Shown: positions 1,282 through 25,700 of the stretch, piece after piece | Numbering within the stretch: the stretch's first letter is position 1 | Layout: each line of letters starts with the position of its first letter | IMG/VR virus record: IMGVR_UViG_3300030098_002293 | Coordinates: 1-54,200 of that record | DNA: 54,200 nt | Reading direction: 5' to 3' (one strand) | Source: a virus | The notes under the pieces: generated by a model | Told to the model about the DNA's origin: nothing | Seen by the model: the letters and a program-made list of their open reading frames with translations, nothing else | The model's database searches: none | Made by a program: the position numbers and the translations under genes

Positions 1282-1553
1282 TGGCTTGGAAAAGATGGGA
1301 TAAATCCCCAAGAAAAAGTAATCCAAAAAGGTCATGGAGTCCTGAAGAAATGAAAATGGTTGGATTTGTTATAAGTAAAGGAATTAAAATAGGAATTAGT
1401 CCTGATTTTAAACACAATTTACATCATTGGCAGATAGATATAAAAATTGGTAACGGTAAAGTACATACCGATCCTAATAGATATAGTGATGAAGATGTAC
1501 ACGAGAATGTAATTAAATATTATAAATACTATTATGAAAAATATAGAGACTGA
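1281..1553 (+). CDS. hypothetical small basic protein
   Basis: A 90-residue, Lys/Tyr/Trp-rich protein whose ATG shares its A with the stop codon of the primase-helicase gene. The N-terminus is basic (KRWDKSPRKSNPKRSW) and is followed by an SPEEMKMV segment and a helical end rich in Tyr and Glu. I recognise no catalytic motif or membrane segment. Its position between helicase and a nucleotide-modifying enzyme makes a replication accessory role plausible, but nothing in the sequence proves it. It overlaps the next gene by 20 bases, consistent with a tightly packed operon. Confidence 0.7.
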   Translation: MAWKRWDKSPRKSNPKRSWSPEEMKMVGFVISKGIKIGISPDFKHNLHHWQIDIKIGNGKVHTDPNRYSDEDVHENVIKYYKYYYEKYRD

Positions 1554-2190
1554 ATTTTGGAATGCTGATGAAGCGTTTAGATATTTTTATAAAACAATAA
1601 GTAAACACGGTAGAAAATTTGCTGATACGAGAGCTTTGTTCAATATAGGTTTTACTATACACAAACCTGAAATGAGAATGATCCCAACAGAGTTTAGAAA
1701 ATGGAATCATGAATATGCCAAAGCTGAATGGCAATGGTATTTATCTGGTGATAAAAATATTAAAAAGCTAGGTGAAATATATGGTAAAGTACCTCCTATA
1801 TGGGAGCGTATGGCAGATGTTAATGGCGACGTTAATTCTAACTATGGTTATCAATGGAAGCGTAACCAACAAATAGATTATATAGTTGGGTTACTTAAAA
1901 CTGAAAAACATACTAGACAAGCAGCAATATCTATATACGATGGTAAGGAATGGGAAAGGTATAAGCACGATACACCATGTACTTATGCTGTTCAATTCAC
2001 AAATGTAGAAAATAGATTAAATATGTGCGTAACTATGCGTAGTAATGATTTGTGGTATGGATTTTGTAATGACCAATATCAATTCTCTAAATTACAAGAA
2101 TTGGTTTGTAAAAGAACAGGACTAGACATGGGTAGTTATTTCCACTTTGCACACAACTTACATATTTACTCAAATAAATTAGGATTATGA
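1534..2190 (+). CDS. thymidylate synthase family enzyme, probable dCMP hydroxymethylase/methylase
   Basis: This 218-residue protein carries the thymidylate synthase fold signatures: a YGYQW segment (104-108), the first Arg of the phosphate-binding pair (R128 in TRQ), catalytic Cys149 in TPCTYAVQF, phosphate-binding R169-S170-N171-D172, and H210-x-Y212, which contact the sugar. Aligned without gaps from the RSxD motif (DVFLGLPFN in E. coli ThyA against DLWYGFCND here), the pyrimidine-discriminating Asn177 of ThyA is Asp180. Asp at this site is the known hallmark of T4-type dCMP hydroxymethylase, while Asn fits dUMP. I therefore infer a dCMP substrate, with methylene-tetrahydrofolate as one-carbon donor. 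Whether it makes 5-hydroxymethyl- or 5-methyl-dCMP cannot be told. It is shorter than ThyA (264). It overlaps genes on both sides. Confidence 0.82.
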   Translation: MKNIETEFWNADEAFRYFYKTISKHGRKFADTRALFNIGFTIHKPEMRMIPTEFRKWNHEYAKAEWQWYLSGDKNIKKLGEIYGKVPPIWERMADVNGDVNSNYGYQWKRNQQIDYIVGLLKTEKHTRQAAISIYDGKEWERYKHDTPCTYAVQFTNVENRLNMCVTMRSNDLWYGFCNDQYQFSKLQELVCKRTGLDMGSYFHFAHNLHIYSNKLGL

Positions 2191-3053
2191 CATATTACTT
2201 ATATCACATACCAGGAAAGAAAATCGGAGTAACTCGTGATTTAAAAGAAAGAGTTGAACGTCAACAAGGTTATGAACCAGGTGAATATGGAGTGTTAACT
2301 CAAACAGATGATATTGATTTAATATCAAGACTTGAATTAAAACTACAAGAAGCTTATGGTTATAGAGTTGATGAGGTACCTTATAATAAACTTAAATTTA
2401 ATAATAACAATATGAATATAAATATAACAGAAATGACGACAACGTTTCCCTGTCCAGTCAATAAACTAAAAGGACAACTTATGGATAATAAAGGAATGTC
2501 TTGGGAAACAGATCACGGAAGTTGTGTTATAACAGATAAATCTATTGGGTGGATAATGGATAACGTTAAGACATCTCAATATACTCAAGATAGATGTTAT
2601 ATATACAACAAAGCTTTTGCTAGATGGTTTGATAATAATAATGCTTATAATAATATGTTTGACAATGCTAAACAAATGAATGAAGTTGAAGCTAAAAGAA
2701 ATGGTACTTTAACTGGAGCTTTAGCACCAACAGGTATTAGACAAAATGGTATTGAAATACCACAAACTCATTTTGACTTAATTAGAAAATGGGCTAGCAA
2801 AAGAGGTTTATATAAAAAGGGAGATCCTAAAACACAAGCGCTAAAACTAGTTGAAGAAGTTGGTGAAACATGTAGAGCTATATTAAAAGGCAATCAAAAA
2901 GATATCGAAGATGGTATAGGTGATGCTGTAGTTGTATTAACTAATTTAGCCCATTTATGCAATACAGATATAGAGCATTGTATTGAATTAGCTTATAACG
3001 AAATAAAAGATAGAACAGGTAAAATGGATAACGGAACATTTAAAAAAGATTAA
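2187..3053 (+). CDS. GIY-YIG-like N-terminal domain fused to MazG-like nucleotide pyrophosphohydrolase
   Basis: 288 residues; the ATG overlaps the preceding stop by four bases (ATGA). Residues about 195-285 form a MazG-like all-alpha NTP pyrophosphohydrolase. The metal-binding EExxE is E223-E224-E227, followed by a second acidic pair E241-D242...D246 before a hydrophobic helix. Such enzymes hydrolyse (d)NTPs to monophosphates, here presumably trimming unwanted nucleotides. Residues 1-65 (YYLYHIPGKKIGVTRDLKERV and on) resemble a GIY-YIG nuclease core, with Tyr/His, IGVT and an Arg on the following helix, but the match is partial and catalytic competence is uncertain. The middle (about 75-190) is Asn-rich and unrecognised. 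The MazG assignment is firm; the N-terminal one is tentative. Confidence 0.8.
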   Translation: MTYYLYHIPGKKIGVTRDLKERVERQQGYEPGEYGVLTQTDDIDLISRLELKLQEAYGYRVDEVPYNKLKFNNNNMNINITEMTTTFPCPVNKLKGQLMDNKGMSWETDHGSCVITDKSIGWIMDNVKTSQYTQDRCYIYNKAFARWFDNNNAYNNMFDNAKQMNEVEAKRNGTLTGALAPTGIRQNGIEIPQTHFDLIRKWASKRGLYKKGDPKTQALKLVEEVGETCRAILKGNQKDIEDGIGDAVVVLTNLAHLCNTDIEHCIELAYNEIKDRTGKMDNGTFKKD

Positions 3054-3055
3054 TT

Positions 3056-3367
3056 ATGTCAAGTAGAGAAATATATGATGCTAAAAATGGAATAGCTATA
3101 AGAAAATCTTATGGTTTTAGAGACCCAGTTGTTAAAAATGTGGTCGATAAGTTTGTTGATCGTTCTGATGTTGGTTTTGCTAAATACGAACAAACGTTAG
3201 ATGATGAACGTAGACTTAAAATGAAAGGTCTTCAAAAGTATTTAAACGATATTCAAGAAGAGTTAATGGACGCTGTGCTATACATACAAGCAGCACGTGA
3301 CGAACTTCAAGATTTATCTGAAGAAGCTTTGATTGATAAAATCAAATATGATGAGGAAGAAATATAA
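3056..3367 (+). CDS. putative all-alpha NTP pyrophosphohydrolase (dATP/dGTP diphosphohydrolase-like)
   Basis: A 103-residue helical, acidic protein starting three bases after the MazG fusion. The core pattern, a KYEQTLDD segment followed by LQKYLNDIQEELMDAVLYIQ, resembles small phage NTP pyrophosphohydrolases of the MazG/MazZ type, in which a KYGxTL-like segment precedes a metal-binding EExxDA helix. Here the candidate metal ligands are the two Glu and the Asp of EELMD. If right, the phage has two adjacent pyrophosphohydrolases, suggesting active pool shaping beside the TS-family enzyme and ribonucleotide reductase. No purine-specific partner such as PurZ is visible in the window. The family call rests on motif resemblance only. 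Confidence 0.6.
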   Translation: MSSREIYDAKNGIAIRKSYGFRDPVVKNVVDKFVDRSDVGFAKYEQTLDDERRLKMKGLQKYLNDIQEELMDAVLYIQAARDELQDLSEEALIDKIKYDEEEI

Positions 3368-3798: not shown

Positions 3799-3930
3799 AT
3801 GAAAGATTGGGAATTCAGTGTAGGGTTCTACCCGGGGATACTATTCGGATTTAGAACTTACACAGAGGTTAATAAAAGAAACCATGTAGTCTATTTACCG
3901 TTTGTAGATTTTTGTATAACTTTAAAATAG
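3799..3930 (+). CDS. small conserved-looking phage protein, 43 residues
   Basis: An open frame of 43 codons fills the gap between the nuclease and ribonucleotide reductase genes. It starts MKDWEFSVGFYPGILFGFRT and ends in VVYLPFVDFCITLK. It begins two bases after the upstream stop and ends five bases before the reductase ATG, exactly the packing expected of a real gene. It is aromatic and hydrophobic with a single Cys and no charged N-terminal signal; it may be membrane-associated or a small binding protein. I recall similar YPGILFG-type short proteins near nucleotide-metabolism genes of marine phages, but I cannot name a function. Confidence 0.6.
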   Translation: MKDWEFSVGFYPGILFGFRTYTEVNKRNHVVYLPFVDFCITLK

Positions 3931-3935
3931 AATAT

Positions 3936-5798
3936 ATGAGTTTAAATAATAAAATACTATCTGATATAACAGTGCACATGAAGTATGCTAAGTATATCCC
4001 AGAATTACAAAGAAGAGAAACTTGGGAAGAATTAGTTACTCGTAATAAAGAAATGCACAAGCGTAGATACCCTGAATTAATAGATGATATAGAAACGTTT
4101 TATAGATACGTTTATAAAAAGAAAGTTTTACCATCTATGAGAAGTTTACAATTTGGAGGTAAACCCATTGAAATTTCACCTAATAGACTTTATAACTGCG
4201 CTTTTTTACCTATTGACCATATTGATGCTTTTCCTGAAGTAATGTTTTTATTACTATCAGGATGTGGTGTTGGTTATTCTGTACAACAACACAATATAAA
4301 AAAGCTTCCTGAGGTCATAAAGCCTCACAGCAAAAGAACAAGAAGGTTTGTAATAGGAGACTCAATAGAAGGATGGTCAGATGCAATAAAAGTTTTAATC
4401 AAGTCTTATTTGGGCTCTAAGAGATCATCTAAGATCAAATTTGATTATTCTGATATTAGACCTAAGGGAGCACGTCTCGTGACCTCTGGAGGAAAGGCAC
4501 CTGGACCGCAACCACTAAAAGAATGTATTGTAAAAATTAAAGGAATATTAGAAAATAAAGAAGATGGGGAAAAATTATCGTCAGTGGAAGTCCACGATAT
4601 TATATGCCATATTGCCGACGCAGTATTGGCAGGCGGTATCAGGCGCGCAGCACTTATATCGCTCTTTTCGGCTTATGATGAAGAAATGATAGCGTGCAAG
4701 TCTGGTTCTTGGTGGGAAACAAACCCACAAAGAGGTAGAGCAAATAATTCAGCTGTTTTAATGAGACATAAAGTTACTAAAGATTTCTTTATGAATTTAT
4801 GGAAACGAATTGAATTATCTGGATCTGGCGAACCAGGAATATATTTAAATAATGATAAAGATTGGGGGACTAATCCTTGTTGTGAAATAGCATTACGTCC
4901 ATTCCAATTTTGTAACCTATGCGAAGTAAATGTTTCAGATGTAGAAACTCAAGAGGAGTTAAATAACAGAGTCACTGCAGCTGCTTTTATAGGAACATTA
5001 CAAGCTGGTTACACTGACTTTCATTATCTAAGAGAAGTTTGGCAAGAGACCACTGAAAAAGATGCTCTTATAGGAGTGTCAATGACAGGTATAGCCTCTG
5101 GTAAAGTTCTTGAGTTAGATATGAAAGAAGCTGCTAAGCAAGTAAAAATAATTAATACAACCGTAGCTAAATCTATAGGTATTAATAAAGCTGCTAGATG
5201 TACAACTGTAAAACCAGCTGGAACAACTAGCTTGGTATTAGGGACTAGCTCAGGTATACATGCTTGGCACAATAAATACTATATACGTAGAATTCGTGTA
5301 GGTAAAAATGAAGCAATTTATAGTTATCTTGCTATACACCATCCAGAATTATTAGAGGATGATTTCTTTAGACCACACGATACTGCAATTATTAGTATTC
5401 CACAAGCTTCACCAAAAGGTTCTATAGTTAGAACAGAATCTGCTTTTGATCTTTTAGAAAGAGTTAAAAAAGTAGCTAAACAGTGGGTTAAAGAGGGTCA
5501 CAGAGTTGGGTCTAATACTCATAATGTTTCTGCTACAATATCTTTAAAAGATAATGATTGGGAAAAAGCTGGTGAATGGATGTGGAAAAACAGAGACCAT
5601 TATAACGGACTTTCCGTTTTACCATATGATGGCGGTACATATACTCAAGCTCCATTTGAGGATATAACAAAACGGAAATATAACGAAATGACTAAAACTT
5701 TGCAAGAGGTTAATTTATCAAAAATAGTAGAAGTTGAAGATAATACTGACTTATCTGGTGAATTAGCTTGTGCGGGTGGAAGTTGTGAAGTAACTTAA
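3936..5798 (+). CDS. class II (adenosylcobalamin-dependent) ribonucleotide reductase
   Basis: Start set at ATG 3936 (620 residues); a TTG at 3912 would overlap the small upstream gene. Features of monomeric class II enzymes are present. An N-terminal reductive Cys88 lies in YNCAF. The thiyl-radical site N313-P-C315-C-E317 is shortly followed by FCNLCEVN, which supplies the second redox Cys. A DIRPKGARL...GGKAPGP block and a C-terminal Cys pair (C612 and C617 in ACAGGSCE) for re-reduction by thioredoxin-like donors are also visible. The enzyme converts ribonucleotides to deoxyribonucleotides using B12 and needs no small subunit, and none is seen nearby. It would supply dNTPs for phage replication independently of oxygen. 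It is the largest gene of the rightward operon. Confidence 0.93.
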   Translation: MSLNNKILSDITVHMKYAKYIPELQRRETWEELVTRNKEMHKRRYPELIDDIETFYRYVYKKKVLPSMRSLQFGGKPIEISPNRLYNCAFLPIDHIDAFPEVMFLLLSGCGVGYSVQQHNIKKLPEVIKPHSKRTRRFVIGDSIEGWSDAIKVLIKSYLGSKRSSKIKFDYSDIRPKGARLVTSGGKAPGPQPLKECIVKIKGILENKEDGEKLSSVEVHDIICHIADAVLAGGIRRAALISLFSAYDEEMIACKSGSWWETNPQRGRANNSAVLMRHKVTKDFFMNLWKRIELSGSGEPGIYLNNDKDWGTNPCCEIALRPFQFCNLCEVNVSDVETQEELNNRVTAAAFIGTLQAGYTDFHYLREVWQETTEKDALIGVSMTGIASGKVLELDMKEAAKQVKIINTTVAKSIGINKAARCTTVKPAGTTSLVLGTSSGIHAWHNKYYIRRIRVGKNEAIYSYLAIHHPELLEDDFFRPHDTAIISIPQASPKGSIVRTESAFDLLERVKKVAKQWVKEGHRVGSNTHNVSATISLKDNDWEKAGEWMWKNRDHYNGLSVLPYDGGTYTQAPFEDITKRKYNEMTKTLQEVNLSKIVEVEDNTDLSGELACAGGSCEVT

Positions 5799-9598: not shown

Positions 9599-10714
9599 TT
9601 ATCTTATTATATAGTTAATACCAAATTTAAAATCATACCACTCTCTATTCCAATATTTATTATATTTACCTTCAGCAAATAATCCTAATTGTTTACTAAG
9701 CTTTTGTCCAAATATAATTCCACCAGAATAATCATACCATTGTCCATCAACATAATTATGATACGAAAATTCATTACCATCATTATAATGATAAGGTAGT
9801 ATATTCCCCCAAGCATGTAACCAATTGCTTTTGGTGTATTTATAATAATCAAAACCTATAACAACAGAGTGTTGTATAATTCTTTCTAATTCATTTCTTT
9901 TTTTAGTTGTATAATCTGCTAGCACTTGTGGTATAACAACCTCCTTCCAAACATCAGCGCTATTAGCAACTATGTTTCCATCAGGATCCATGTATATATC
10001 GTTGGCTACATCTACATTGTACCCTTCTTCTAAAGCTAAATACGTATAATGTAAATTACCATTTGATAACATCCATTCAGCTAAAGGATTGTATCCATAA
10101 GGCTCAGCTAATCTATGTGTTAAACCTATACTAAATGCCAAGTTTTTGTCTTTCTTATATCTATATCTTTCTGATAATTCAAAATACTCTACATCAGCAA
10201 AGCCATCTTTTAAATATTCTACTTTAGCAGCAAAATGATCTATACATAAAGGACCATCACAATTATCATCAGAACTATACCTAATAAAATGATGTTGATC
10301 TATATAGTCTATACCTTGTTGTCTTGCGTAATCTATTTCAAATAAATATTCGAAACCTTGTACCTTACCAACAGTAGCGGCGTCTGTATAATTGGATTCT
10401 GTACCATCATAAAATGTTTGCGCTTTGTTTTCATGTCCAAATCTAGCTATCTTTCTAATACCTATAGTTACAGAATAATCAAATGGAGTTTCTATAGTTG
10501 AAGTTTGTAAACCGTCAAGTATAGAAAATGTTTTAACATCTGATATAGAATTTCCACCATTCACAGCTCCATATATTGTAGAAAACTTTAATTGGTTTTT
10601 TATAATATCATCTATATTATACTCGTGCCCTTTGTAAGTAAATTGCCCACAGCATTTTTTAGGAGTGGCGCATGAAGTTATAATAACCAATAACGCTAAT
10701 AATAATTTCTTCAT
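9599..10714 (-). CDS. lipoprotein with barrel-like C-terminal region
   Basis: 371 residues. The N-terminus MKKLLLALLVIITSCAT is a lipoprotein signal peptide with Cys15 as the lipidation site (lipobox ITSC). The rest contains aromatic-rich strand-like segments (YSVTIGIRKI, LAFSIGLTHRL, HSVVIGFDYYKY, YDYSGGIIFGQKL, LGLFAEGKYN, YDFKFGINYIIR), reminiscent of an outer-membrane or extracellular beta-barrel. A Cys-containing loop (DDNCDGPLCIDH) may be disulfide-bonded. Its ATG overlaps the stop of the T9SS-type repeat protein by four bases, so the two exported proteins are probably co-translated. A phage-encoded lipoprotein suggests host surface alteration, for instance superinfection exclusion; that is inference. 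Confidence 0.75.
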   Translation of the reverse strand: MKKLLLALLVIITSCATPKKCCGQFTYKGHEYNIDDIIKNQLKFSTIYGAVNGGNSISDVKTFSILDGLQTSTIETPFDYSVTIGIRKIARFGHENKAQTFYDGTESNYTDAATVGKVQGFEYLFEIDYARQQGIDYIDQHHFIRYSSDDNCDGPLCIDHFAAKVEYLKDGFADVEYFELSERYRYKKDKNLAFSIGLTHRLAEPYGYNPLAEWMLSNGNLHYTYLALEEGYNVDVANDIYMDPDGNIVANSADVWKEVVIPQVLADYTTKKRNELERIIQHSVVIGFDYYKYTKSNWLHAWGNILPYHYNDGNEFSYHNYVDGQWYDYSGGIIFGQKLSKQLGLFAEGKYNKYWNREWYDFKFGINYIIR

Positions 10715-12933
10715 TTTGAATATTTTTTCTCTACTGTACCATCATTATATATAAACAGCAACACTTGATTACTACCAGGTTTTGCTGGTCTACCAAGTAT
10801 ATCAGTAATCATTATTAATTCTTTATCAAATCTTTTTGGCAATGGTCCTATCCAAGTTCCTTCACAATAACTATAAGTAGCTTGACAAATCGTGTCCCAT
10901 TCATTTTCACAACAATACTCATCTACTTCTATTACCCATTCGTAACAAGGGTCATTAAGCCAATAAGGATTACCCGGGCCAGTGACACAAGCAGCGCTAT
11001 ATAAGCAAGAAGCAGAGTCATTAACATTAGCCGCAATATCATAGTTGTACGCAGACTGATCCATACACCCTTCAACAACAGCCACACACGAACCATTATC
11101 AGTATTAGCTGTTGAATCATAATTAAGGGCAGTACTATCAGTACAACCGTAAATATAAGATATGCAGCTAAAATCTTCTGTGTTAGCTTGTGGGTTGTAG
11201 TTAAGCATAGAAGGATCGGTACAACCATAAATATAAGGAGTACAATTGGAAGGATTATATTCTGCATTTGCTAAAGGATTAAAATTAAACATAATAGAAT
11301 CAGTACAACCATATACAAACTCTATACAACTTCCGTCATCTGAATTAGCAAGAGAATCATAGTTAAACATAGTAGGATCCGTGCAACCGTATAAATATGC
11401 TATACATGTGTCAGGCGTATTGGCTAATGGATTGTAGTTAAAAGCTAAACTTTCCATACACCCATATATCACAGGCACACACCCACCGTTGTCTACGTTA
11501 GCTTCGAGATTATAATTAAACGCGGTTGAATCCGTGCACCCAAACACAGCTAAAGTTTGACAACTATCCTGTATATTAAAATCTGAATAAACTGCGTTAG
11601 ATGTATCGATATGATACTCTAGATACGCAGGAGACGTACATCCCGGAACGTAATAACATTGTTCCGCTGTATTTGCTAAAGAGTTGTAATTAAAAGCGGT
11701 AGAATCCATACATCCATTAACCACTTCAATACATTCGTTTCCACAATAAGTAGTTCCTGTATAAGTTTGAAATGGAACGATAAATGGAGGAGTGATACTT
11801 AACACTGTATCACCCATTGGATTGCGTAAAGTAAATCCACATTCTAAAGCTGTGTGTTGAGCTTGTGATGTTACAAAGAATTTAGCTTTAACTATCTCTG
11901 GGGCGTTTAATTGTATTGTAAAGGATTGATTTAAACTAGGTGTATTCATATAAAACACGCTAGTATCATCTCCTTGGTATATTTCTAATTTACTTCCTAC
12001 CCAGCCATTACCTACAAGATCATGTAGTATAAGAGTGTAATCGCAACTATCTATATAATCCATATAGTTAGCGGTAGAATCATAATTGAACATTGTTGAA
12101 TCAGTACATCCAATAACTTTCATAGTTACACAGCTACTGTCACTAATAGTTGCTAATGGATTGTATTCTAAATAATTCTCATCCATACATCCTGGCACTG
12201 GTGGTGGAGGAACACAGGTGTCTGATATAAAGGTATGAGTGGAATCTGTCCCAAAGTTAGCAACGGTACCATGCACTAAGGTATCTCCACATTGTATCAG
12301 GTAGTAAGACCCATCTTGTCCTCCCCACAAGCTACCAGCTAGTCCGTCTCCATAAGAATCATATATTGTAAAAGTTAGATTACCTGTGGGTAAACATACT
12401 GGTTCAAACTGTGGTTCATAATCAGGAGCGTTTGAGTAAGGTCCTCCTGCTGCTATAATAGCACCTGTTGAATCTTTTATATTCCAAGTTGTTTCACTTT
12501 GGTATTGATCTAAATTAATATTTACCATAGCTGTAACACATCCAGATGATGGTGGTGGTTGAGGCATGCATTGTGGTACAGTTCTATTATGTATTAATCC
12601 AGTTGTAAACGTAGACGTAGGGTAATCGACTATAGTATCCCCACATACAGTAACATAATACTCCCCGTTAATTATACCATCTCCATAACCATCAAATATA
12701 ACAAAAGATATATTAGTAATACTATCTGCCATATAAATAGTATCCTGATGCATAGTGTTTCCTTGGGTGTAATGCCCATAGGGAACATAAGCTATAGTAT
12801 CACCTTGATAAGCATCTTTATATAAAGTCCACTTAGTTTCCCCTGGATAACTATCTGTTTTTATATGTATAATAACTTCTTTTTGTGCAAAAGTTATTAT
12901 AGGTAGTAATAATAGTAATAATAATTTTTTCAT
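10711..12933 (-). CDS. secreted Cys-repeat protein with a type IX secretion type A sorting domain
   Basis: 740 residues. A Sec signal peptide (MKKLLLLLLLPIITFAQ, probable cut at FA/QK) precedes two similar modules with an IYDSYGDG-type core (residues about 20-110 and 125-235), each followed by a CGDT[LI]V strand. Eleven GC[TM]xxxxxxY-type repeats of about 21-28 residues, each closing with Cys, run from residue 248 to 643. A further Cys-rich segment (YCCENEWDTIC) follows. The C-terminus (FDKELIMITDILGR, then NQVLLFIYNDGTVEKKYSK) closely resembles flavobacterial T9SS type A sorting domains (LIKITDILGR...IYDDGTVEKK). I infer export by the host T9SS to the cell surface or medium. The shared repeat type with the giant tail protein is striking. 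Confidence 0.8.
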   Translation of the reverse strand: MKKLLLLLLLPIITFAQKEVIIHIKTDSYPGETKWTLYKDAYQGDTIAYVPYGHYTQGNTMHQDTIYMADSITNISFVIFDGYGDGIINGEYYVTVCGDTIVDYPTSTFTTGLIHNRTVPQCMPQPPPSSGCVTAMVNINLDQYQSETTWNIKDSTGAIIAAGGPYSNAPDYEPQFEPVCLPTGNLTFTIYDSYGDGLAGSLWGGQDGSYYLIQCGDTLVHGTVANFGTDSTHTFISDTCVPPPPVPGCMDENYLEYNPLATISDSSCVTMKVIGCTDSTMFNYDSTANYMDYIDSCDYTLILHDLVGNGWVGSKLEIYQGDDTSVFYMNTPSLNQSFTIQLNAPEIVKAKFFVTSQAQHTALECGFTLRNPMGDTVLSITPPFIVPFQTYTGTTYCGNECIEVVNGCMDSTAFNYNSLANTAEQCYYVPGCTSPAYLEYHIDTSNAVYSDFNIQDSCQTLAVFGCTDSTAFNYNLEANVDNGGCVPVIYGCMESLAFNYNPLANTPDTCIAYLYGCTDPTMFNYDSLANSDDGSCIEFVYGCTDSIMFNFNPLANAEYNPSNCTPYIYGCTDPSMLNYNPQANTEDFSCISYIYGCTDSTALNYDSTANTDNGSCVAVVEGCMDQSAYNYDIAANVNDSASCLYSAACVTGPGNPYWLNDPCYEWVIEVDEYCCENEWDTICQATYSYCEGTWIGPLPKRFDKELIMITDILGRPAKPGSNQVLLFIYNDGTVEKKYSK
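11005..12192 (-). repeat. eleven GC[TM]D...C protein repeats in the secreted protein
   Basis: Coding repeats with consensus GCTDSTAFNYDSLANTDDGSC, degenerate at DNA level and varying from about 20 to 28 residues. Each unit starts Gly-Cys and ends Cys, with Asn/Tyr at the middle, suggesting one disulfide-bonded or Ca2+-binding loop per unit. One N-terminal unit is separated from the rest by about 120 residues of beta-type sequence containing HDLVGNGW. Confidence 0.9.
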
Positions 12934-13790: not shown

Positions 13791-16700
13791 TTATTTACCT
13801 TTTTTCTTATTTTCAAGTTGTATTATTTTATTGACTCTATCTTCTTCGTATTTTAATTCTTTAATTTTTTTACTAGATAAGCCTAATTCCATTAATAAGT
13901 TTACTTGATCTTTTTTATTCATTTTAAATAAATCGATAGATCTTTTTTCTTGTTTAGAGGGAACATAATTCTTTATATTTGTTAATGAAGAGTCTATTTT
14001 ATTAGGATTTTTATTATATAATTCCATTATTTTATCTACTCTATCTTTTTCCTTAGGATAATCTTTAGGATTTAAATCATATTCTTCTAAAATTTTAACT
14101 TGTTCTCGTTTATTTAAATTAAAAACTTCTTTTGTTTTTTCTTCTATTATAATAGCCTTATCAACCTCTTCTTCTGTTTTATCAGGATATTTCTCTTTTA
14201 ATTTCTCTTGTGTATCTTTAAATTTCTTTTTTTCTTTCTCTATTTTTTTCTCTTGTTTCTTTCTTTCTTTTATATCTTCACCCAAAGCAACTATATCTGG
14301 ATCTTTAACACCTAAATCCCATAAATTCCAACCCATAAGCAATGCTACTCGTTGCCATGTTTCGTGTCTTGAGTCCATAGCGTTGCTTAGGTTGTTTAAT
14401 TTGTTTGATAATCTACCTAATGGAATATTTGTAACACCTTCAATAGTATTCCCAATAGCATTCCAAATAGGATTGTCAATAGCAAATCCTCTTTCACTTA
14501 TTATATCTCTATTAAATTTTTCTGTTTGAGTAGATTGATATATTTTACGTACTTTAGAACCAATTGGGGGTGAAAAGCTTAAAGCTTGTAATAAAGTATA
14601 AGCGTGGTCTGATCGGGTCATAAAATTATCATCTAAATCTTTAGCTCTCTGCTTGTTAAATTCCATTATAGTGTTTTTTACTGTACTAATAGCTTTACCA
14701 CCATATCCAAAAACTGATAACCAAGAGTCTACCATAGAGTTTGCCATTCTATCTGTTTTTGAATCTAACATTTTTTCCTTTTCATCATCATCATCGCTTC
14801 CAAGAACAGCAAATAAAGCAGATTGCAACGCGGTAAATATTATTCCCTGTAAGGCTCCATAATAAATTATTTTAGAAACATGTGTTTTTGCGTCTCCTCT
14901 TCCGTTTGCTAAATCTCTAAACGCTTTATTCATTATACGACCATACTGCATAGGTGTGTTTTGAAACGCTAATATTAATCTACCAAGAGGATTAGCTTGT
15001 TGTTGTGATATTAGATCTGGTCTTGCTGATTGCTGTGCAACTTCAGTTGTTTCTTGAAAATCTAACCAAGCTTTTTCTTCTGCTGCTTTTTGATCTAAAC
15101 CTTGTTTTAAATAAGTTTTAACTCTATTTCTATAAAAACTAGCTCCACCACTAGCAATAGCGAAACTATCTGCTATTTGTGTAGGTGTAAAACCTTTTTT
15201 AAGTAACCATGCTAAAGCTGCTTTTACTTTGTTATCACTACCTGCTACAGCGGCAGCTAATTCAGCTTCGTTGATATTATATTTTAAACCAGCACGTCTT
15301 TGTTTTAACATGTCTGAATTAAATATCATAACAAAATCTTTCCAATATTGTTTTTGATTAGCAAAAGCTAAACCTGCTTTTAACACATTGTTATCGCCCC
15401 AGTTTATATAATTTGTTGCAGATATAGTTTGTAAAACTGCAGAACGTATATTAAAGAACATAATTGCACCAACTGAGTTGTTTACCCAGTTCATATACAT
15501 ATTTGTTAGTCTATTGCTACCAACAGGTCTATTAGATCCAGTTTTCATACGGTACAACATATCTTCTAAAGCTTCTCTAAATTTACGTCCATATAAAACT
15601 TCAATTTTATTTAAGTTTTCTTTAGAAAATATTTGATCTACATTTTGTTGCCATTCAGCTAAGAAATTAGCTCTAGCGTCACCAATAGCACCGTCACTCA
15701 TTAAATCAGATGCTATGTTTTCTGTTAACCAATACTCTCCAGGTTTTGAATAACCTTCTGTTTTTTTAGAAACAATACCTAATGCATCTGCAAAAGTCTG
15801 TAAATCTACATCATTTGCAATATAAGAGTTTAAATTGTTTAAATCTCTTTTAGATAACCCAGGGACATCAAATCCAGCTTTATTCCATAAATAAACTCTA
15901 ATAGCTTGATCTACAGTGAAACCTGTGTCACCTGCTTTTTTATTTAACATCTTTTTTACATTAGGAAATTCTTTTAATAAACTTCTATAGTCTTCAGCTG
16001 TTTTTTGTCTCGCGGTGTTTAACTCATCATAACCTCTAGCGAAAGGATCAATTAAAGCTTTCTTTAATGTTTCAAATTGTTGTTCTCCTTTTTTACCTTT
16101 ACCTATAAAGTTATATAAAAGACCAGCAAAATCTTGTGCAGACGGTGGTACTAATCCTCTAAATTTAAATCCTTTTCCTCTTAATTTAGCTTGAGCATCT
16201 GAAAATCTTTTCTCAGATTTCATACCTGTTGTTTCTTCTAATATATCATTAAATGTATTATTTAAGTCACTACTAAGTTGTATTTTTGCTTGAACAGAAG
16301 ATCCTTTTATATCTAATTGATCCATTATGTTTTTAACAGCAGTAACATTAGGTAGTGCGTCGTCAACAAAATACATGTCGTTGTAGCCTTCAGCATATTT
16401 TTGAGCCATCCATAGCGCTTTAGCTTCTCCAGTGCTATTTCCTAAGCCTGTTATATTTTTTAAAGGCATATCTATACCCTTTGTTTTTAACCAACCTCTT
16501 ATAGCTGTTTCGCTTTCTGTTGGTCTAGCTGTTAATATGTAAGTGTTTTCTATACCAAATTTATTGATTCTATTTCTAAGTTTTTGCATTAAAGGTCCTT
16601 CAACTCCACCTCTTACATTTACAAAATCTGTAAAGTCAAATTCATACCCTTGTTCAGCTAATTCTGGTCCTTGAATTGGCCATTGTTCTGATGATATCTT

Positions 16701-19700
16701 TATTGTTTCTTTACCTTTTTTAGCAATTATAAAATTTTCTCCTTCTATAATTAAAGTCTCATCAAAATCAAAAGCAGACATACCTCTTGATTGCGCATTA
16801 TCATTTATTAATCTAGAGTTTTGTATAGCCTTATCAATAGTTTTTTCTTTTATACTTTCTTTTGTTCTTTTGTGGTTTTCAGCTTGTTGCCTGCCTTCAA
16901 CCTTTCCAGTAAATACATTGTAAAGAGCATGACTTGCCCCTGTTGCTGTCCATCTACTTAACCATCTTTTTAAAGCGCCATCTCCAATTTGATAATTAAA
17001 ATGCATTCTCTCCTTAAATAATCTACCTACATTATCATTAAAGTCTCTATGTAACACACCAACTTCATAAGCTTTTTGTATATCTTCTAATTTTAAACCA
17101 TTGTTAAACCAGTGTCTACCTATCATTAAAGCATTAACTACTTTAGCTGGTAACCCATGTTCAAATTCAAAGTTTTTCTTACCGTTAACATCTTTTAACG
17201 CGGTTGCTGGCGCATCCAAAGCAGCGTACGTAAATACAGCACCTCTTCTTAAAGGTGTTTTCATATTAGCGTTCATAGCTGCCATATGCATAGCGAAATG
17301 TTCTTTACCATTTTTCATCGCTTTAGAATTTTCAGCGGCTATAGCTGTTATGTCATCGTAAAACTTCATTGCCTCGTTAGAATCTTTTCTTCTAGCATTA
17401 GCTTCTTCTATACTCATAGGTGAATCAATAGATCCATCTTCGTTTGTAGTGGTTAACATATCTTTAGTTGTAGCTTGAGGCCAAGCTTTTGTTACTTCTA
17501 TAGTCTTTTGTATAGTTTTACCTTCTTTTTTAGTCTCTATAATGTAACTTACTTTATCTTTAACTTCTTTCCCATTTTTATCTAAAACTTTAGGTCCTTT
17601 TTTATAACTTATTAACCCAGGATATATATGTGTTAAAAATTCTTGAGTGTAAACTTCATTATGTCTTCCCGGAATAGCTTTTTCTATAATCTTTTTCTGT
17701 TCTTTATTTAACTCTTTAAAATTCTTACCGTATTTTGATTGTGATTCTTCATTTCTTAACCTTAAAACTTTTTGATCTCCAAAAGTCATTCCTCTAGCAG
17801 GATCAATTGTACCGTTTTCTAAGAAACTTTTATTTCTAATGTATTCTCCTAAAGCCTTTTCTCTAGCTTGCTCTTCAGTTAAACCTTCTTCTTGTAGTTT
17901 TGTTACATAGCTATCAGCGTTGGTTTTTTGGTATTTTTTATTTATTTCTAAACGCTCTCTAAATAACTTAGTTATAGGATCTGTTTCAAGTATTTTAGAT
18001 ATACTATCAAAACCATCGTCTCTTTTAGAATCTTCAGCCATTAAAAAATCACGGAAACTATTTACATCTTTCCCATCCATTACAACATCTTCTTTTGTGT
18101 ATTTAAGATAGTTCTCACGTAATGTTTTAGAGTACCAGTTTATTAACTTATTTCTATAATTAACTCCATCACTACCTATCCAAGCGTCTTTTCCATTTTC
18201 GTTGACAACCTCTCCATAAGGCCAAGTTTCATTAAAAGCTTTTGTAATTTGATTTTTTAAATTTGTTTCATTTGTAGGGTCTAATATAACGTTGTCGAAT
18301 TGAGAATGGAATTTATTTCTACCATCCCAATATACATGTTGAATTAAATCTTGTTTAGACCCATCTATAATAGAACTAAGCATAAGATCTCCTTTACCAT
18401 CTTTCATAGATTGTAATCCTATTAAACCTTTCTCTTCAGCTATTTTAGTTACAGATTGATTTGCTATAATAATAGCAACCTGCATTACAGATCCTCTCAA
18501 AGGCCCGTCTACAACTCTATCTTCTGTTCTAAATCTTCTCTTCACTCCTACAGGAGTAATACCGAGCATGTCTAGATAATCTGCTTCATTTATATTTTCA
18601 ACAAAGTTTTTCTTTTGTATCTTTAATCCCTTTCCTCCCCCTTTCTTTTTCGATGTGCCGTATACTATCTTATTACCAATTCTCTGTTTCGTCGTCTTTA
18701 CCCTTCCTTCTTGTGCGGTGTATATTAGATTCGTTTCTCCAGTTTCAGAATTTATAGCCTTTCCTTTACCACCATCTAAAAACACTGGTTGCACACCGTT
18801 GGCATCACCTAAAGAATTAAACGCCTCAGGCATCATATTTAACATCGACCTAGCTCCAATAGAATTGATTTTTAATTGTATCGATGTTCTCTCGTCAGTA
18901 GTTAAAGCAGAATCCTTTATTAGTTTACTAGGTTTTACACCAAATTCTTTTGCTACCATGTTTAAGATCTCGACTAATACAGCGTCGTTATCTTTTATTA
19001 AACTCTTAGTATCTTTATAAGTCTTAGGGTCTTGTGCTATTACCTCGTTGAACTTCTTTTCAACTATTAAATCAAAAGCATTCCTAGTTATATCGTTTCC
19101 ATTCTCGTCTTGACCAATAACATCTTCTGTAAACCCTAACTTTCTAGCAAAAACAACAGTTCCTTCCACTGTTCCTACGTCAAGTGTACCGTCTCCTTTG
19201 TACTCACCACCTTGTTTGGCGGCGGCACGTGCTTCTTGTTGTTTTTTGAACTTATCTATAACACCAGGTTTTTTATATATGATATGTTGAGCTAACCAAC
19301 CTGATAAATCACCTTGTGCTACGCCTTGATATTTTGTTTCTGGGTTATAATTAATAATAGCTGTAGTTAATTCGTCTTTAACAGCTTGAATGAAGTCGCT
19401 CATTGAGTCAGATTCTCCTTTAACAAAAGAAACTCTATCTCCTTCCATTCTAGTGCCTAAGTTTCTAATAGAACCGTTAAGTTCGTCAAATCCAGGTTTA
19501 CTAGGATCATTAGTTAGTAAGTTAGCTGGATGAGGTTTTGTTTTAACAGTCCATTCCCCACCAACTTTTCTTCTTACCTTATCAGCTCCTTTATTGAGCA
19601 TGTCATCGTATTGCTTCTTAGTAATAACAGACCCTTCTTTATCTCTAACTAAATTATTTATTACTTCTTGTTTTGTTTTTCCTTTTACCGTAGTTGACTC

Positions 19701-22700
19701 TTGTAATTCACCTCTAACGTCTCCAGCTAAATCCTTTCTTCCTTTGGCAGCTTCTATTTGAATTTTATAAGCTTCTGTTAATCTTCCTTTTTTGAAATCC
19801 TCTATAAAGCTTACTACTTCATAAGCTGCTTCTTTAGCGTTTTTAACCTTATAATCTTTATTTGTAAATCTAGCAAACGTACCTCTACCTCTCTTTATAA
19901 CATCATTACGTAGTTTAGCGTAGTTTTCATGTTTCATCTTAGTTGTTACTTCTCTAATGTATTCATCTAAAATCTTGTCTATTCTATCTAACCTATCTCC
20001 AGTCGCAGTTTTTCTTTCTTCAATTATATCTTTTATTGTTTCATTATTACCTAAATAAGTACCATCTCCATCAGACATTCTTCTGAGATCATTCTCAACA
20101 TTTTCATTTAGTACTTGAGCACGTTCACTTTTTTCATTTAATAAAAACTCATTTAAGTAAATTCCTTTTTGTGAAATCTCTTCTACAGATTTAGTTATAT
20201 TATCTAAGTAATGACCAGTTTCATGTAACCAAGCGGCTCCTTGTAAAAACTTGTTTTCACCAGTAACATCTAAATCTTCTTTTATTCTTTGCTTAGCTTG
20301 TTTCTCGTTTATAACAAAAAATTTATTATCTAAAAGAAAACCATTATGATTAGATTCTATTGTTTTTCTATTATTAATCAGATGTCTTACCATCTTTATA
20401 GCTTCTTGAGCGGTTATTTTATATTCTCTACGTAGTTCTTGAACTTTATCTATAAGACCATCAAAGCTACCAGTCTCTTCAAATTCTAATTTTCTATTTG
20501 TAGCGTCTTCAACTATATTAGCTATATCTTTTGTTGTTGATTTATCGTTTTCAAATGTTCGTAAATCTCTAACTCCACCCGCATAATGAGTTTTAGCTAA
20601 GTAATCATATATCTCCTGCTCTTTTTTAAGTCTTTGTTTTCTATCTTCAACAACTCCTTTTTTACCTTTATTTTGTTGTTCCCATTCTTGTTTAGTTTGA
20701 GTGTTTGTGGTGTTTGTTATTGTTACGTTTGGTTTAATTTTTTCTTTTTTAACATCTTCATCAACTTTAACGTCTTTATCAACTTTAACGTCTTCATCTG
20801 GTTTTGTTTGAACCTCTCCATCTGATACAAAAGTTGTTTCGTTGTTTTTATGAAGAATGTTATCAGCTAGTAAACTTGCTTGATGATCATTTTGAACGTC
20901 AATTTTAATCTCACCTCCTTCTCCTTCTTCATTTAATCTTTTTATTTCATCTATAAATTCTTTTTTAGAATTGTATTTTACACCGTTTATTTCGTATGTT
21001 TTTTGGCTCCAAACAGCGTTGTCTACCGTTGTTGTAACTTTCTCATCTTGTTTCATTTCTAAAGTAGCGTTGTCTAAATGAAGCCTTTGTATAACATCTA
21101 GTTCTATACGTAACTTACCGATTTCATCAGCTTTGTTATAGGCTTCTTTTCTTTCTTTTCCTTCTTTAGATTTGTCTTTTTGTATTATATCTTTTATTTC
21201 TTTTCTTGATCCATTTTCTTTATAATCAGGACCATATATAGATTCAGTAGCAATTTCTGGTGTCCAAGCATCTTTTAAATCTTCGTTAGAATTATATAAT
21301 TTACGATAACCTTCTATCCAAGCATCTCCAGAACCAGCTTTCTTTTTATTTAATTTGTTTCTATATATTTCTAGTTTAGCATTGACATGGTTCTCGTTAC
21401 TAGCGTTCTCTTGTAGTATTCCAGCTTCTAAAAGATAATTACTTAGAAGTCTACTATTTTCATATATTTGTTTTTGATCACCCTCACTCATTCCCAATAA
21501 ACGAACATGCATATCTTGCCAATTTATTACTAATTCTTGCATTCCATCTCTAAGATCTTGGTTTGCAATATCTCTTTCTTTTTTTAAACGCGCAAGTTCA
21601 TTATTATCTATTTCAATATCTGTATCTTTTGCTACAAGCTGTATATTAAGTATTTGCTCATCTATATCTGCTATATTGCTTTCTAACGCTTTTAAAGTTT
21701 GTATATCTTCTTCCATTTTACGACGCGCCTCCATCTTTAAGTTGTGGTTTAACATCGTATTGGTAGTTATTGATACTGATCCAGCACTACTACTCATAGC
21801 GGCCGCATCCCATAAAACTTTAGACATTTGACTATAATCACCATCTCTTTGAAAAATAATACCATCAACAAACTCTGTTGCACCGTATATACTACCTTCT
21901 TCTAGCATTTCACCACCGGTTTGTATTCCAATGCCTTTTAGTGCTTCTTTACCACCCACCCAAGGATTATAACTTGATAAACCTCTATAACCTTTTGTAT
22001 TTTTAGAAAAGGCTTTTGTTATCTTATTTGCAATTCCAATATCACCAATACCAAGTCTACCATATCCGTATGTAAAACCCATCTCAATAAAACCTGTGGA
22101 TATAACAGAAAACCATTTTTGAGTTTGAGACATGTCACCTCTATCTATAACTTCATTTAGTCTCATTTTTTGATTTCTAAAATTCTTGGGAGTTACATTG
22201 CCTTTTTCATAATTAAGTTTTAAAGCGTCTAATTGCAACTGGGCATTTGCAGCGTCTTCTTGTAAGCTAGTTAATTCAACATATTTACTACCACCAGATC
22301 CAGTTCCAACAAGAACTGATGGAGTAATCATAGCCCCAGCTTTACTAAGTCCAAAAACACTTGTACCAACTCCCATTGTGCTTACAAACATAAGCATATT
22401 AGCGCCTTGATCTGCCCAAACCATACCAAATGCACCCCAATTGTCTCCTTCTCCCCACCCGTAAGATTTTTCGTATTGAGCAGATTTATTATATTTTAAC
22501 AACGCATCTTGAGCCCCTTCATGACCAAATAGTGCTGCTGGGCCCATGTATAACTTATCAAAACCTCTTCCAGATCTTCTTCGCCAGTTCTCCCAATAAC
22601 TAGTCTCCATTCCCGTTTCTCCTTGGGCTATTGCTAAAAGAAAGTCTTTCTCTTTTCTTTTTACCTCTCCATTAATCATTTTTTGACGATCTGATTTTAC

Positions 22701-25700
22701 CTCATTTCTAGTGTCATTGTAAATATCTATAGCATGATATAAATTCATCACGGTTTTCGCGTGATCTTCTGGAAGATTTAAAAGTTCTAATCTACTCATT
22801 TGTGACCCGCTTTGTATATTTTCTACAAACGCTTGGTACTGTTCATCACTTTCTTTTTCTTTTTGTATTTTTGCATTAGGATTCTCGTCAAACCATTTTT
22901 GAATCTCATCTCTGTTTTTACCCCCTCTATATATCATGTTTTGAAGTTTTTGCATTTCAGGAATAAGAACTTTTAATTTCTTTTTTAATACTTCTTTATC
23001 TGTAACCCCAGCTAAAGCATTTTTTTCCGCCTTCCATTTATCATGTTCAACAATGAGTTTACTCCACTCTGATTCTGTATAAGCCTTTCCATCTATAACA
23101 GTAAAAACATCTGTAGTTATCGGCACACCACCAACTTCAAAGCCATATTCGACTGCTGGTTTTTTCCCTAATTTTAAACCCTCCCACAATTGTTGTGCTA
23201 ATGGTGCTTCTGCAAAAGCCTCATCTGTCTCAACTAAAGTACCTATCCCTTCTTCAACTAAGTCATATTCTCCTAACTTTTGGTCTTGCTTGAGTTTATT
23301 ATATTCATCGTATTTTTCAGGGTCAATTTTAATTATACCGTTAAAAATTATCTCACCATCTTCAGTAAAACTAATATCAACGTGAAAACCGTTTTTAAAG
23401 CAATCTTGTAAAGCGACCATTGTTGTCTCTGAAGCACGGTCAAGTAAATCGGTGTTTATATCTAATCTTTTATTTATATCTGCTTGTATTTCATCATCAC
23501 TGAGTATTAATTCGTTACCATCTCTATCAATGTACAGATCTCCGTTATCAGTTGTTAAAAGATAATCTTTATTTTCAATCTGAGATTGAGCATAAGTTTG
23601 AAGTTTTTTAACAAAATCTTCAGTATACATGGTTTCTCTTATACCATAAGCATCGTTTAAATACTCATTATATATAGCTTTATACCACGTCCAAGCTAAA
23701 TCACCTTGCTCATCTGTCAACGCTCCTCTACCTGTAAAACTTGCTCCACCTCTACCTTTAAACATGTTGGTCTTAAGGTAATCAATTAAATCTTCTTTAC
23801 TTCCAACCACTGCAAATGGATTAATACCTTCCTCCATTAAAGCATCAGAGAAATATTGAAGAGTATACTGAGCGGCATTATTACCTATATCTTGTATCTC
23901 TTTTGGAACCCAATCACTATTAGTAAAATTACCACTTAAAAACTTCATACCATCGACAGTGCTAACTCCAGGTACTATTATAGATACGCCCGCTTTTGTT
24001 TTTTGAGTTGTTACGCTAGGTAACTCGCTTTTACTTGGATCATCCTTGTCTTTAAAAATATTTAAAAATCCTGTGTTGATCTCTATTTCTGGAAGTTCAA
24101 AAGTTCCACCCGTAATAGGAACGTCATATTTAGAATATTTTGTTTCCGCAGTAGAAAAATCAAGAGTAATCTCCCTATTCTTAAAAAACCGCTGCATTAC
24201 CTGTTTCTCAGTATAATCATTTATAGATATTTCTTTTTCTATCTCCTCTGCACGTTCTTTTAATGGATCAATTAATTTACCGTTTTGGTATTTTACAGCT
24301 TTAGTCTCAAAAGTCTGCATTTCTTTTTTAGTTATAAAATGAGCTAAATAACTTATAACATCAGTTGATAAACCACCTACTGCTTTAGACTCACTCTCCA
24401 TGGTATGTTCAAAATAAATATGGCTTGATCCATATGGTAGTTTCGTACCTTTAGCATCATACATAAACATCCCGTCAGTTCTACTAAGTTTTAATTTATT
24501 ATCTGTAAAATGAAGTTGTAACCCAGCGTCTTTAAAATAATAATTAAAATCATTATCTAATTCCTCTTGAATCTCTTTTCTTATTGCAACTTGCCTTGAA
24601 TCGGTTTTGACCCAATCTTTCCAATCCTCCTCTGTCCAGTAACCACCTGTTATCATATCCCTCATTTTATTCTGTTGGGCAAAAAGTATTCTAAGACTGT
24701 TATCTAAAGTTGTTTTTCTCTCTTTAGCGGGGTTATAATCATAATCAATCTTTTCTCCAACTTCATCATGAAACAAAGAGTTTAATAAAGGTATATTACC
24801 TCTTGGATCTTTTATTTGCTTGTCTAATAGAGCGAATAAATGCCTTAATTGTTGTTCTGAAAAATCAATTTGTCCACCCTCGTTCTTAAATATTTCAAGA
24901 ATACCTCTGTCTTCATTATAATTATCAAGATGACTATAGCCTTCATAAAAGCTCTCACCTCCATATATATCAGCGTCAAGCATCATGTATTTAATCGTGG
25001 GAATATATATTCTTACAGCGTCATAACCAGAATCATCCACCGCATTTACAGCTAAATTATATTTTCTAAAGTATCCGTTTGGATCAGTTAATACTCGATA
25101 TATTTCTCCAACAGGAGTAGACTTCTTCTGCGTGATATCCAACAGCGTTTCATAAGATTCTTTTTCTATAATTTCACTAGCTCGTTGTATTTTTGCTTCT
25201 TTTATTTCTTTTGGAGTTTTTATAAAATACTCATTAATAAAACGTTCTCTTCCATTTTTATTTTTTGGATATCCTGAGGTTTCAAGTCTAAAAACAAACT
25301 CTTCTGCAGTCATAAACCCAAGTTTAGGACTATAAAATTTATTATCTAATCCTTCTTCTTTGATTATTTCAGAATCTATTTTACCATCAATATAATCATT
25401 ATATCTTTCTTTATCTTTTTTAACTTTTTCATTTAATTCTCCAGTTGTATAAGGCTCTAACCTAATAAATTCATCATAATCTTTTATCAACCTTTCAATA
25501 TCTTTATCTTTTTCATCCTTATCTTTATCTGAACTTTCTATTTCTGATAATCTATTTTGAAAAGAGCTCATATCAACGGGAACAAGTAGGCCATTTTCGT
25601 TATATTTCCAGTCTTTTAATTTAATTTCGTATATATCTGGTGATGATTGGGCTTCTTCTAAAGTTGTTTCGTAATCTAACGCACCATCTCCATCGTAAAT

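Follow-up and report, generated by a model that had tools for sequence, protein, structure and literature searches.

The virus record IMGVR_UViG_3300030098_002293, a 54.2-kb fragment called the window below, encodes a thymidylate-synthase-family protein with aspartate at the position that reads the pyrimidine. Which nucleotide does this enzyme use, which group does it add, and does the product replace a normal base in the phage DNA? We consider it highly likely that the gene encodes a dCMP hydroxymethylase, and probable that 5-hydroxymethylcytosine (5hmC) replaces cytosine in virion DNA, with the adjacent MazG protein as the probable dCTPase and protection from restriction as the predicted outcome. 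The features discussed are collected in Table 1.

By its terminase, the window is closest to the spring-water contig MW202828, followed by phages of Flavobacterium, Cellulophaga, Tenacibaculum, and Maribacter, in agreement with the flavobacterial affiliation proposed in the first-pass annotation. Searches of one literature library for the clade and hydroxymethylcytosine found nothing direct. The virion region contains giant ORFs at 13791–26726 and 31016–40096 (−), of 4311 and 3026 aa; repeated GCTDxxxxNYxxxAxxDDGSC-like motifs occur in ORFs 31016–40096 and 10711–12933. The closest large relative encodes phage GroEL and GroES (L087:4148–5713 and L087:10812–11390).

Table 1. Features of the window around the predicted dCMP hydroxymethylase gene
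Feature	Position	Strand	Evidence or remark
TOPRIM and DnaB-like primase/helicase, 5' part lost at contig end	1..1281	+	PHROG 239, E = 1e-59
Predicted dCMP hydroxymethylase, thymidylate-synthase superfamily, 218 aa	1534..2190	+	PF00303, E = 6e-27
S102-N-Y104, hydroxymethylation signature (T4 S94/Y96)	1837..1845	+	Invariant, 82/82
D146-T-P-C149, predicted water-activating Asp three residues before catalytic Cys	1969..1980	+	T4dCH D145/C148 equivalent, invariant
Asp180 codon GAC, predicted cytosine-reading residue	2071..2073	+	Equivalent to T4 D179 and E. coli ThyA N177
GIY-YIG-like N-terminus and C-terminal MazG nucleotide pyrophosphohydrolase, candidate dCTPase	2187..3053	+	PF03819 over cut-off
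Conserved helical 103-aa protein, tentative second pyrophosphohydrolase	3056..3367	+	70/81 loci
Adenosylcobalamin-dependent ribonucleoside-triphosphate reductase-like protein	3912..5798	+	PHROG 367, E = 1.6e-134

Protein family and base-reading residue

The frame of ORF 1534–2190 is open and correctly placed, and its product matches PF00303 with 94.8 bits (cut-off 24.3) and the thymidylate synthase PHROG with E = 1e-41. Homologs were collected in two sets, 82 close ones and 80 more distant (sister) ones found by a search with the BF486P2 protein, 162 altogether; a single scan of IMG/VR yielded at least 387 stretches encoding the enzyme. All features required of the superfamily, i.e., the PF00303 domain, the catalytic Cys, and the RSxD and HxY motifs, are present. 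The individual residues Cys149, Arg169/Ser170/Asp172, and His210/Tyr212, which the first-pass annotation had described as intact, are invariant in the 82 close homologs.

The best single-sequence PDB match of the protein is T4 dCMP hydroxymethylase (1B49, E = 1.4e-15). The segment MRSNDVVFGFRND of T4 gp42 pairs with MRSNDLWYGFCND of the phage protein, placing Asp180 on T4 Asp179. The earlier alignment from RSxD to HxY indeed needs no gap with ThyA; with T4 gp42 it does, owing to a small insertion further on, which leaves the Asp180 site unaffected. The assignment of Asp to the site of ThyA Asn177 stands, and none of the 82 close or 80 sister homologs has another residue there. The second cytosine marker is Thr150, which occupies the site of ThyA His147 and is invariant in all 82 close homologs. 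In a set of 433 thymidylate synthases from metagenomes, no other positions told cytosine-modified contigs apart as well as 177 and 147 in E. coli numbering (PMC8670742); the phage protein has Asp and Thr at these positions, as do T4 gp42 and MilA.

The dNMP-selecting residues Ser170 and Arg128 are likewise present and invariant in 82/82 homologs. They correspond to Ala176 and Lys133 of MilA, which select ribose, i.e., ribo-CMP (PMC5175136), and hence dCMP should be the substrate of the phage enzyme. Together, Asp180, Thr150, and the nucleotide-type residues across the 162 homologs support the earlier proposal that the predicted substrate is dCMP rather than dUMP.

Operon neighbors and predicted incorporation of the product into DNA

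The genes follow the order primase/helicase, orf90, hydroxymethylase, GIY-YIG-like–MazG fusion, 103-aa protein, DUF1064 nuclease-like protein, and class II ribonucleotide reductase-like protein. The hydroxymethylase gene starts inside the end of the 90-aa ORF and its stop codon overlaps the next ATG, indicating a tight operon. MazG adjoins the hydroxymethylase in 79 of 81 window-family loci, in which the primase/helicase (74), the 103-aa protein (70), and the DUF1064 protein (70) are also conserved, and MazG is found in 53 of 80 sister loci. Conversely, 57 of 62 loci with a full-length GIY-YIG-like–MazG gene contain the hydroxymethylase. The MazG domain itself (PF03819, 26.8 bits against a cut-off of 22) was detected in 17/17 relatives, with invariant acidic metal-site residues Glu223, Glu224, Glu227, Asp242, and Asp246.

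T4 gp56 provides a precedent for the removal of dCTP. As MazG-type domains are common in many other phages too, the role of the MazG protein as a dCTPase, which is plausible, rests on the linkage and on this precedent. The first-pass annotation had suggested that two neighboring NTP pyrophosphohydrolases remove dCTP; the domain match bears out one of them, with linkage pointing to dCTP, whereas the second, the 103-aa protein, was not confirmed. A PDB profile search with it was empty and a fold search gave no meaningful match; its model is poor (pTM 0.44) and its PHROGs are essentially of unknown function.

The GIY-YIG-like N-terminus (2187–2400) has invariant Tyr, Gly, Arg, and Glu residues and weak matches to T5orf172 and MUG113 (T5orf172 in 12 of 17 members, best E = 0.006, the window protein being below the Pfam cut-off). 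Kinship of this domain with T4 DenA was considered and rejected (hhalign probability 1.8%, irrelevant PDB matches). It is unlikely that this one polypeptide performs the jobs of both T4 gp56 and DenA (endonuclease II), MazG destroying dCTP and the GIY-YIG-like domain cutting cytosine-containing DNA; were it so, a widespread marine phage clade would possess a compact operon of hydroxymethylase and "cytosine eraser" without glucosylation.

The product of ORF 3912–5798 is the likely source of dCTP; it matches TIGR02505 with 285 bits, below the cut-off of that model. The reductase slot varies among relatives, being occupied by class II enzymes, as in the window, in 28 loci and by class I NrdA/NrdB in 36–40. 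A dCMP deaminase was found in only 2 of 32 large relatives. Exactly one PF00303 gene is present in 31 of these 32; MW202828, a relative without this gene, carries ThyX. An ATP-dependent DNA ligase was found in relatives, and this domain was associated with modified contigs (PMC8670742).

Searches of 33 window-family records revealed no T4-type dNMP kinase (DNMK), group 1 glycosyltransferase, carbamoyltransferase, or ThyX, and a T4-type beta-glucosyltransferase was not detected in the family either. As no glycosyl- or carbamoyltransferase was recognized in the clade, plain 5hmC is the default prediction. A three-gene cassette lies near the dCMP hydroxymethylase gene at L042:803–3539 and L050:4503–7239 in the window family and in about 25 of 80 BF486P2-type loci. 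It encodes two proteins of 302 and 303 aa that match no Pfam family, together with a PALP/PLP-type protein of 296 aa (PF00291, E = 1.4e-8), and may represent an unknown hypermodification pathway.

The avoidance of GC-containing palindromes relative to Markov expectation was compared in 40-kb stretches (one of 36.5 kb) between 16 genomes bearing the gene and seven terminase-related flavophage-type controls. Within the terminase-anchored set of viral contigs, every near-complete contig bears the gene and the others are fragments, unusable as within-clade controls; cultured flavophages were therefore used. Absence of PF00303 was established on the whole record for MW202828 and one elemo phage; for the Cellulophaga and Tenacibaculum controls it relies on how the stretches analyzed are annotated. 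Avoidance of C-containing palindromes was stronger in the controls, with a mean log2(observed/expected) of −0.41 for 4-mers and −0.48 for 6-mers against −0.14 and −0.19 in gene-bearing genomes. AT-only 6-mers were equal (−0.17 in gene-bearing genomes and −0.20 in controls, P = 0.34), and AT-only 4-mers differed slightly (0.00 and −0.09). The reference 6-mer values are −0.18 for T4 (15 kb), −0.17 for BF486P2 (24.7 kb), and −0.38 for SPO1. Since essentially one clade is compared with some five lineages, P values overstate the significance; the groups are not phylogenetically independent, and the weaker avoidance in gene-bearing genomes is no more than suggestive of cytosines protected from restriction.

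An alternative is that the hydroxymethylase is genuine but its product does not take the place of cytosine in the virion DNA, serving instead in partial or transient modification or in the nucleotide pool. This would fit the window family, in which neither a dedicated kinase nor a glycosyltransferase or further finishing enzyme was recognized, but the MazG linkage, the family-wide invariance, and the reduced avoidance of C-containing palindromes argue against it, and we regard it as quite unlikely. Replacement remains our preferred reading: the virus probably builds its DNA with modified cytosine, as T4 does.

Hydroxymethyl versus methyl transfer

The first-pass annotation did not choose between 5-hydroxymethyl- and 5-methylcytosine. 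The study of T4dCH ternary complexes defined a hydroxymethylation signature consisting of Asp at Cys-3, which activates the attacking water, and a Ser followed two positions later by Tyr, the enzyme itself lacking the ThyA C-terminal tail (PMC6400193). The phage protein contains the full signature (Asp146, Ser102, Tyr104), which is invariant in close and sister homologs; E. coli ThyA carries Pro at the Ser102 site. Only six residues follow the last motif tyrosine, Tyr212, versus 55 in E. coli ThyA, and the folate-closing tail of ThyA, required for hydride transfer, is absent. In a two-way table of the Cys-3 and base-site residues, the reference enzymes fall as expected: gp42 of T4 and CC31 as well as MilA have Asp at both, SPO1 dUMP hydroxymethylase has Asp and Asn, and the E. 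coli, T4-type, and Elizabethkingia ThyA proteins have no Asp at Cys-3 and Asn at the base site.

Partner enzymes in the sister loci point in the same direction. Homologs of a carbamoyltransferase whose specificity for 5hmC was validated experimentally (PMC8670742) are encoded in 8 of 80 BF486P2-type loci and also in BF486P2 itself (L082:6677–8455), whose homolog is 31.6% identical to the validated enzyme (E = 9e-79). A T4-type beta-glucosyltransferase (PF09198, E = 1.6e-12) occurs in five of the 80 loci. In Enterococcus phage VPE25 and Lactobacillus phage ATCCB, more distant homologs of the window protein neighbor annotated beta-glucosyltransferases. Since these partners require a hydroxyl group, they speak for hydroxymethylation.

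A dCMP methylase, in which Asp180 would select dCMP and hydride transfer would yield 5-methyl-dCMP and a 5-methylcytosine genome, is very unlikely. It has in its favor that the N177D substitution alone shifts ThyA towards dCMP and 5-methyl-dCMP, as cited in PMC8670742. Among the compared sequences, which include no authentic dCMP methylase, Asp146, Ser102/Tyr104, and the lost tail match hydroxymethylases and not ThyA, and the sister loci encode enzymes acting on the 5hmC hydroxyl. The signature, the missing tail, and the 5hmC-specific partners thus favor 5-hydroxymethyl-dCMP, which the enzyme very probably makes, judging by its homology with T4dCH.

In the predicted reaction, Cys149 would attack C6 of dCMP, Asp180 would hold and protonate the cytosine, and methylene-tetrahydrofolate would donate the one-carbon unit. 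Water activated by Asp146, with Ser102 and Tyr104, would then attack the exocyclic methylene, releasing 5-hydroxymethyl-dCMP and tetrahydrofolate; as the missing tail leaves the site open, no ThyA-type hydride transfer yielding a methyl group is to be expected. Once phosphorylated, perhaps by a host kinase, the product would be taken up by the replisome. The adjacent MazG protein would probably turn dCTP into dCMP, which removes the competitor and supplies the substrate. The resulting 5hmC in virion DNA would protect it against restriction.

If true, marine flavobacterial phages of a large uncultured group, represented by at least 387 IMG/VR stretches, have 5-hydroxymethylcytosine DNA, which bears on phage resistance to restriction and CRISPR, on the modification-dependent defenses needed by hosts, and on the recovery of such genomes by some sequencing chemistries. 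Given that no finishing enzymes were recognized, the group may be a natural case of bare 5hmC, or it may encode a decorating enzyme that is yet to be discovered.

Phylogeny and comparison with known enzymes

An AlphaFold2 model of the protein was built from 18 family rows (pLDDT 85, pTM 0.84). Its closest fold in the PDB, as ranked by Foldseek, is the CMP hydroxymethylase MilA (TM approximately 0.88, rmsd 2.2), ahead of bacterial ThyA (about 0.74–0.80) and T4dCH (0.72–0.74). In the phylogenetic tree, which has several long branches and weak deep placements, the phage family, BF486P2_b, and two MAG contigs form one clade (support 99/98), and T4-like gp42s occupy a separate long branch not joined to it; the enzyme would thus work like gp42 while lying outside the gp42 clade. 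It is highly improbable that the protein is a thymidylate synthase of the ordinary phage kind or acts as a dUMP hydroxymethylase: the Pfam and PHROG label reads "thymidylate synthase" and the window has no other such gene, but the site that reads the pyrimidine holds Asp, not Asn, in all 162 homologs, Thr replaces His147, the ThyA tail is missing, and a 100/100 branch separates the family from canonical ThyA.

Three known identities were rejected. Canonical ThyA differs in Asn177, His147, Leu at Cys-3, Pro at the T4 Ser94 site, and its 55-aa tail, as opposed to Asp180, Thr150, and no tail in the phage protein; SPO1 gp29-type dUMP hydroxymethylase has Asn where the phage protein has Asp180; and MilA/BcmA-type CMP hydroxymethylases are set apart by Ser170 and Arg128 in place of Ala176/Lys133.

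Agathobaculum phage AB434P2 has an annotated deoxyuridylate hydroxymethyltransferase (L109:2881–3543), yet the Asp at its base site predicts dCMP as the substrate. The annotated thymidylate synthase of Maribacter phage Molly_1 (L120:1953–3032), with Asp at Cys-3 and Asn at the base site, is a predicted dUMP hydroxymethylase; its gene adjoins an annotated beta glucosyl transferase, and Molly_1 is possibly a 5hmU-type flavophage. The second thymidylate-synthase-family gene of BF486P2 (L082:9177–9938) keeps Cys and Asp but misses the Glu58 equivalent in the alignment, and its product may be altered or inactive.

Among characterized systems, T4 gp42 (T4dCH, PDB 1B5E/6A9A) shares with the phage protein the equivalents of Asp179, Asp145, Ser94, Tyr96, Cys148, and Glu60 and the lack of a ThyA-type folate-closing tail. 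It differs in sequence (about 30% identity), in clade, and in length, its last motif Tyr being followed by 28 residues versus six; the phage gene, in turn, has no neighboring glucosyltransferase and adjoins the MazG fusion. MilA (CMP 5-hydroxymethylase, PDB 5JNH) has the equivalent Asp186, Thr after Cys, and Asp at Cys-3, but also its own ribose-selecting pair and an extra C-terminal helical domain. The MetaGPA D-type "thymidylate synthases" of modified metagenomic phage contigs (PMC8670742) offer a parallel: Asp177 together with position 147 is a marker of cytosine modification, domains of pyrophosphohydrolases and DNA ligases are associated with such contigs as well, and the study included a coastal sample; the carbamoyltransferase characterized there has no counterpart found in the window family. 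The closest cultured homolog is the deoxycytidylate 5-hydroxymethyltransferase of Bacteroides phage BF486P2 (WAX06796), with 46% identity over the full length and all signature residues, although this phage additionally has the second thymidylate-synthase-family gene and the 5hmC-carbamoyltransferase homolog. The window family is thus a new, numerous branch of predicted phage dCMP hydroxymethylases, an enzyme kind whose principle is already known.
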